Positions 51,424 to 51,692 of a stretch of DNA of 51,692 bases are shown here, one piece after another. Within the stretch, counting starts at the first letter, position 1, and every line of letters starts with the position of its first letter. The translations under genes were made by a program, and so were the position numbers. The notes under the pieces were generated by a model. The model was not told the origin of the DNA. It saw nothing but the letters and a program-made list of their open reading frames with translations, and ran no database searches. The DNA comes from a bacterium (lineage in GTDB: Bacteria > CLD3 > SB21). Location of the stretch: positions 1-51,692 of the forward strand of contig JABWCP010000023.1 in the NCBI GenBank assembly GCA_013360215.1. The letters run 5' to 3'.

Positions 51424-51452
51424 TTGACATTCGAGAGGGAATCAGCTATATT
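51424..51452 (+). promoter_or_regulatory. strong sigma70-type promoter facing the repeat array
   Basis: TTGACA (51424-51429), exactly 17 bases, TATATT (51447-51452): the closest match to consensus in the window. Start is expected about base 51459, roughly 29 bases before the first repeat unit. No ribosome site or reading frame follows, so the product is probably a non-coding RNA. Confidence 0.7.
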
Positions 51453-51487
51453 TTTTGCGACCAAAAAAGATTATATGTACAGCTATT

Positions 51488-51577
51488 GCGAGTGCAATTT
51501 AGTGGTAGAATGTTCGTCACGCAAAATGCGTGACTGGACGTCGCGAGTAAGATTACAAAGATAACTGATACCTAGTC
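51488..51577 (+). repeat. tRNA-like tandem repeat, unit 1
   Basis: A 90-base element. It begins with GCGAGTG like a tRNA acceptor strand, then CA, a D-arm (ATTT, loop AGTGGTA, GAAT), then GTTC. Where an anticodon arm should be, there is an 8-bp perfect hairpin GTCACGCA-AAA-TGCGTGAC (51516-51534), then ACGTCGCGAGT as at the start of a T-arm, but no closing T-stem, acceptor 3' strand or CCA. The last 62 bases (51516-51577) are identical in unit 2. A 26-base spacer (51578-51603) follows. Confidence 0.75.
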
Positions 51578-51603
51578 TGAGAAGTAATAAGACAGTATTT
51601 AAT

Positions 51604-51692
51604 GCGAGAGTAATTCAGTGGTAGAATGCCGTCACGCAAAATGCGTGACTGGACGTCGCGAGTAAGATTACAAAGATAACTGATACCTAGTC
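51604..51692 (+). repeat. tRNA-like tandem repeat, unit 2 (window ends at its edge)
   Basis: Second unit at a period of 115-116 bases: GCGAGAG, TA, D-arm ATTC/AGTGGTA/GAAT, GCC, then the 62 bases identical to unit 1. The 5' part differs at a few bases; in the D-stem the C-G pair of unit 2 is a U-G pair in unit 1, so pairing is kept. The match stops only because the window stops, so the array may continue. Functional tRNA is unlikely for lack of a 3' half. Confidence 0.75.

Follow-up and report, generated by a model that had tools for sequence, protein, structure and literature searches.

Hairpin-scarred partial copies of a tRNA-Gly gene in tandem beside the intact gene, and comparable scars at other bacterial tRNA genes

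Integrative elements at tRNA genes regenerate an intact tRNA and leave a partial copy on the other side. Downstream of Escherichia coli tyrT (rtT RNA), tandem repeats beside the tRNA gene each contain a piece of the tRNA 3' end, and we know of no replacement of a tRNA arm by a hairpin among them. REP and REPIN repeats are short, GC-rich, dispersed and often paired palindromes that are mobilised by RAYT, and the mitochondrial double-hairpin elements and Rickettsia palindromic elements are short mobile hairpins, single or double, that insert into genes. In T-even phages, the GIY-YIG homing endonuclease SegB cuts within tRNA genes and causes tandem amplification of tRNA segments; its preferred motif is RAWTSGAAC, of which the opposite strand reads as a T loop (PMC13096335).

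The scars described here share features with each of these systems. Like the tyrT repeats, the Gly array consists of tandem repeats beside a tRNA gene, but here arms are swapped for hairpins, and no Rfam covariance-model match to rtT RNA was found in the window. Unlike the footprints of integrative elements, the scar units are 50-120 bp long, occur several in tandem, carry a hairpin at the junction and are not accompanied by a recombinase gene. The hairpins resemble REP/REPIN repeats in being short, GC-rich, dispersed and often paired, but they replace or interrupt the arms of partial tRNA copies. They differ from the mitochondrial and Rickettsia elements in that they occupy arm positions in redundant tRNA copies and are accompanied by a partial duplication of the tRNA. 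The likeness to SegB (PMC13096335) is in a free-standing GIY-YIG gene beside tRNAs, a T-loop-like motif and tandem tRNA-containing repeats; by contrast, the genes found here are chromosomal, encode proteins of about 80 aa and are associated with hairpin-scarred partial tRNA copies. In the literature we found no description of the replacement of tRNA arms by hairpins, and the statement of a preliminary description of this DNA that no named family has such a layout holds as far as could be checked.

The window, that is the whole stretch of 51,692 nt that was analysed, is the complete contig C23 of a draft genome (G000) that totals 3.72 Mb and consists of 56 contigs. The array occupies its last 269 bases, in which a near-consensus promoter is followed by two units with a period of 116 bp, and it continues on contig C28:

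51424..51452, + strand: sigma70-like promoter TTGACA-17-TATATT, which its position and sequence mark as the ancestral promoter of tRNA-Gly; the same pair occurs in relatives G003, G005 and G006
51488..51515, + strand: unit 1, decayed copy of tRNA-Gly nt 1-27; 22/27 positions match the intact tRNA
51516..51534, + strand: unit 1, palindromic hairpin GTCACGCAAAATGCGTGAC replacing the anticodon arm (tRNA nt 28-39)
51535..51545, + strand: unit 1, TGGACGTCGCG, corresponding to tRNA-Gly nt 40-50 (3' anticodon stem, variable loop, start of T stem)
51546..51603, + strand: unit 1, spacer/leader reaching unit 2; the C28 unit has the same sequence with one additional A preceding the tRNA
51604..51630, + strand: unit 2, copy of tRNA-Gly nt 1-27; 27/27 positions match the intact tRNA
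51631..51649, + strand: unit 2, hairpin GTCACGCAAAATGCGTGAC as in unit 1
51650..51660, + strand: unit 2, TGGACGTCGCG, tRNA-Gly nt 40-50
51661..51692, + strand: unit 2, spacer, cut by the contig end and carried on into C28 (96-base exact overlap)
C28, 8-123: array unit; C28, 124-196: intact tRNA-Gly(CCC)

The preliminary description had reported two glycine-type tRNA-like units 115-116 bp apart and a near-consensus sigma70 promoter pointing into them. All of this was borne out: the units start at 51488 and 51604, they copy tRNA-Gly(CCC), and TTGACA-N17-TATATT scores 11/12 against the consensus. A hairpin does replace the anticodon arm, as described there, with 8 pairs and a 3-nt loop rather than the 10-bp class proposed. 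The units are not devoid of a 3' half, since about 11 nt of it (TGGACGTCGCG, nt 40-50) are present; what they lack is the 3' acceptor strand and the T arm. Beyond the 5' part of 27/28 nt, units 1 and 2 are identical at 62 of 62 comparable bases, and the GTCACGC...GCGTGAC hairpin with its 3' neighbour occurs twice in the window and not once in shuffles.

The right edge of C23 and the start of C28 share exactly 96 identical overlapping bases, and C28 carries the array on until it runs into an intact tRNA-Gly(CCC). A complete tRNA just beyond the window edge had been named in the preliminary description as a refuting observation, and it is what the next contig holds. Its position there, C28:124-196, is the reason why ARAGORN and Rfam gave no match in the window, within which no functional tRNA gene (RF00005; a complete cloverleaf with acceptor and T arms) was found. 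In the C28 unit all 27 of the 27 tRNA positions are as in the intact gene, compared with 22 in the distal unit 1. The array thus comprises at least two scarred units and the intact tRNA, and probably more units, because the assembly should not have broken at just one copy.

In three relatives (G003, G005 and G006) the TTGACA/TATATT promoter directly precedes a single tRNA-Gly(CCC) and the array is absent; in G002 and G004 there is likewise one tRNA-Gly(CCC) within the stretch examined. The array was therefore inserted between promoter and gene, and it lies between the old tRNA promoter and one intact tRNA gene. A search of the C28 sequence preceding the intact gene gave no further promoter-like site. 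Transcription of the tRNA-Gly therefore probably still starts at the 51424 promoter and runs through the array, from which the tRNA would be freed by normal 5' processing.

Similar scars stand beside intact copies of many tRNA genes. A scan of the G000 tRNA loci (47 matches) for nearby direct copies of their own sequence identified partial copies beside the intact gene at the Gly locus and at five others, in four of which an arm is clearly swapped for a REP-like hairpin. At Val-tac, the D arm (nt 11-26) is replaced by TCACGCCGTTGGCGTGA; at Ala-cgc, both the D and anticodon arms are replaced in several units, one of them shortened; at Arg-cct, the T arm (nt 51-65) is replaced by TCACGCCAACGGCGTGA in 50-bp tandem units that likewise break the assembly (C45/C27); and at Val-cac, the T arm is replaced. 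The fifth, Lys-ctt, is a degenerate remnant. Inverted tRNA 10-mers served as a chance control and gave single 10-11-mers at five loci. Single direct 10-11-mers at Arg-tct and Arg-ccg, which look like chance matches given their length, were left out of the count, as were those at Val-cac in G003 and Leu-tag in G002. More distant tRNA fragments in G000 were not convincing (19 tRNAs queried), with the exception of a tRNA-Val copy on C26. This copy, at C26:34983-35051, covers the 3' part of tRNA-Val(tac), is altered at its own 5' end and lies 1.6 kb downstream of the intact gene; gene and copy enclose small ORFs and look like a small islet integrated at a tRNA.

In other genera of the family, all represented by draft assemblies, two relatives were scanned in the same way and further loci were then searched for individually. 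Arms replaced by hairpins that differ from those of G000 were found in G002 and G004 (Lys, Ser), G006 (Ala) and G005 (Leu, Pro). Lys-ctt is scarred in both G002 and G004, and the G004 copy is full length: both its D arm and its T arm have been replaced, and its acceptor stem and anticodon arm remain intact. Ser-gct of G002 has scars on both sides, and scars were also found at Tyr-gta (G001, G003, G005) and Phe-gaa (G003, G005, G006). Partial copies upstream of the gene retain the tRNA 5' end, and those downstream retain the 3' end and often the terminator. Scars common to several species decay between species, as expected for remnants.

A second form of scar is an insertion of a hairpin pair into the T loop, after GGTT or GTTC, which was found at six tRNA genes in the family with 0 or 1 tRNA base lost. 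At Ser-gga, Tyr, Leu-caa and Pro-cgg, the T-loop GTTC is followed by an inserted pair of hairpins of about 30 nt and no base is lost; the insertions at Ser-gct (G004) and Phe (G003) differ by one base. A covariance model built from six scars of this kind matched in 18 of the 386 genomes searched. Among the matches outside the family, three lie directly 3' of a tRNA, in distant genomes that do not belong to its class, and each is a 3' copy of that tRNA interrupted exactly in the T loop: Arg-acg in G205 (tandem units), Pro-ggg in G062 and Ser-gct in G137. The inserted hairpin pairs are of 30-53 nt and stand at the same T-loop point. The remaining outside matches that were examined are mostly dispersed-repeat hairpins with no tRNA nearby. 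In viral contigs, the hairpin-pair patterns gave a single match, without a tRNA.

The hairpin motif of the Gly array was found at 13 sites in G000; a reversed control gave 0, and no family relative has more than one. It is thus a REP-like dispersed palindrome in the broad sense, and the other hairpin families are dispersed too. In viral contigs it had three matches, in phage-like DNA with no tRNA context. A dispersed element of about 95 bp on C7 of G000, GCGGAGGCCGAYAGCCCG...ACCCGWCACGCC..GCGTGACGGGGCACGCC, ends in the same hairpin core. The scars had been found through tRNA similarity, and their hairpins were noticed afterwards. The frequency of GC-rich hairpins (stem of at least 6) is 0.33 per kb over 302 kb of background, compared with at least 14 in 888 nt of scars, a rough figure because the limits of the scars were drawn by eye before computing and related scars are not independent.

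Four relatives have small GIY-YIG genes in the interval that separates the intact tRNA from its scar: at Ser-gct in G001 and G002, at Ser-gga in G002, at Pro-tgg in G005 and, in two tandem units, at Ala-cgc in G006. A truncated GIY-YIG gene is present at Ser-gct of G004. The tRNA-linked proteins are chromosomal and small (about 80 aa); one of four proteins showed a weak match to a phage homing-endonuclease family, and one that was compared with phage records had no match at 1e-5. The strict SegB motif fits one of the eight T loops tested, and its relaxed form coincides with the general tRNA T-loop consensus and is uninformative. In G000, no GIY-YIG gene lies beside the Gly array or any scarred tRNA, and four small GIY-YIG genes are located elsewhere.

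The explanation of the Gly units that we favour, and regard as reasonably probable in its entirety, is that they are tandem partial copies of tRNA-Gly(CCC) scarred by a REP-like hairpin in the course of a palindrome invasion that was probably started by SegB-like cutting. A break would arise in an arm of the tRNA gene, a hairpin at the DNA level, and in the case of the T loop at a site resembling those cut by SegB-type GIY-YIG nucleases. Repair would regenerate one intact tRNA and cap the other end with a palindromic repeat. Given that the cap would remove the target, only the intact copy could be struck again, and units would accumulate on its side; identical units may also multiply through unequal crossing-over. 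Arrays without a GIY-YIG gene would be ORF-less derivatives of those enclosing one. Breakage of tRNA genes by a nuclease is plausible by analogy with the phage system. Against it stand the lack of an adjacent GIY-YIG gene at the G000 loci, the outcomes of the phage and motif comparisons given above, and the occurrence of scars at D and anticodon arms as well; we know of no nuclease site in these arms. The Gly array itself is an anticodon-arm replacement, and the exact T-loop insertions occur at other tRNA genes. No intermediate of hairpin acquisition was seen.

If the units were functional, expressed from the 51424 promoter as structured small RNAs or as tRNA decoys that might counter tRNA-cleaving enzymes, this would account for the near-consensus promoter, for the identical hairpins and for a recent amplification of identical units. 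Such a function appears improbable to us because the promoter belongs to the tRNA, the units lack acceptor strand and T arm, and the array is missing at the equivalent locus in three relatives. The preliminary description had taken a C-G to U-G change in the D stem as a sign that the RNA fold matters. The change is real (TTC/GAA compared with TTT/GAA), but nothing can be proved from a lone C-to-T wobble change, 5 of the 27 tRNA positions are lost in the distal unit, and equivalent scars differ in their arms and hairpins and decay between species. Of the three origins considered there, the remnant of a duplicated tRNA comes close to the evidence, and small RNAs and decoys do not find support; the best reading is that the scarred units are by-products and not functional RNAs, and we found no evidence for functional small RNAs. 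An assembly artefact is extremely improbable: although the array lies at two contig ends and its unit count is given only as at least 2, the tRNA part of unit 1 differs from that of unit 2, and contig-internal loci (Ala-cgc, Val-tac and Val-cac) and other assemblies show the same anatomy.

Polymerase template switching or slippage alone, in which tRNA arms and REP hairpins fold on single-stranded DNA, replication jumps and flanks are duplicated, would need no dedicated nuclease or element. It agrees with the exchange of D, anticodon and T arms alike for hairpins, with tandem units of hairpin plus flank and with the G000 loci that have no nuclease gene. We nevertheless consider it rather unlikely: one exact T-loop insertion point is shared by several tRNA genes in the family and recurs in three genomes that fall outside its class, four relatives have GIY-YIG genes enclosed by tRNA and scar, and the donor hairpins are unrelated in sequence to the arms they replace. 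An origin in which a RAYT/Y1 transposase moves REP hairpins and the tRNA copies are incidental fits with the dispersal of the hairpins and with the only Y1_Tnp (RAYT-like) gene found in G000 (C5:154047-154391). This gene is flanked by palindromes other than the scar hairpins, AAACCCGTAGGGTTT and ATTCCCTAACGGGAAT, so that no scar hairpin family was found flanking a RAYT/Y1 gene in G000, and RAYT action would leave the partial tRNA copies beside an intact gene unexplained; such an origin is very improbable. None of the genes identified in this analysis accounts for the movement of the hairpins.

The scar pattern points to a little-described attack on tRNA genes by palindromic DNA and probably a GIY-YIG nuclease. 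We tentatively extend palindrome invasion to a general process, in which widespread palindromic mobile DNA would specifically capture broken tRNA-gene arms: SegB-like GIY-YIG enzymes would cut, the exchange of an arm for a REP hairpin (or a T-loop hairpin pair) would cap the break, one intact tRNA would always be regenerated, and units would accrete as a record of attacks. The favoured reading accounts for odd repeats of tRNA-like sequence as mutational scars. It connects REP-like palindromes with tRNA genes, and probably with chromosomal GIY-YIG nucleases of bacteria, and offers the T loop as a concrete target for studying the spread of short palindromes. It also carries a warning that tRNA-like arrays at contig ends may conceal an intact tRNA and a broken assembly.

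Other palindromes were observed in G000 at GIY-YIG genes and at contig ends. Two stand-alone small GIY-YIG genes (C4:37417 and C4:6139) have REP-like hairpins on both sides, of the CACCCGCG..CGCGGGTG and GTTCCC..GGGAAC types. The end of C10 and the start of C8, which overlap by 36 bases, contain a palindrome array with a 177-bp period, composed of the GTTCCCGC..GCGGGAAC and CACCCGCG..CGCGGGTG types.
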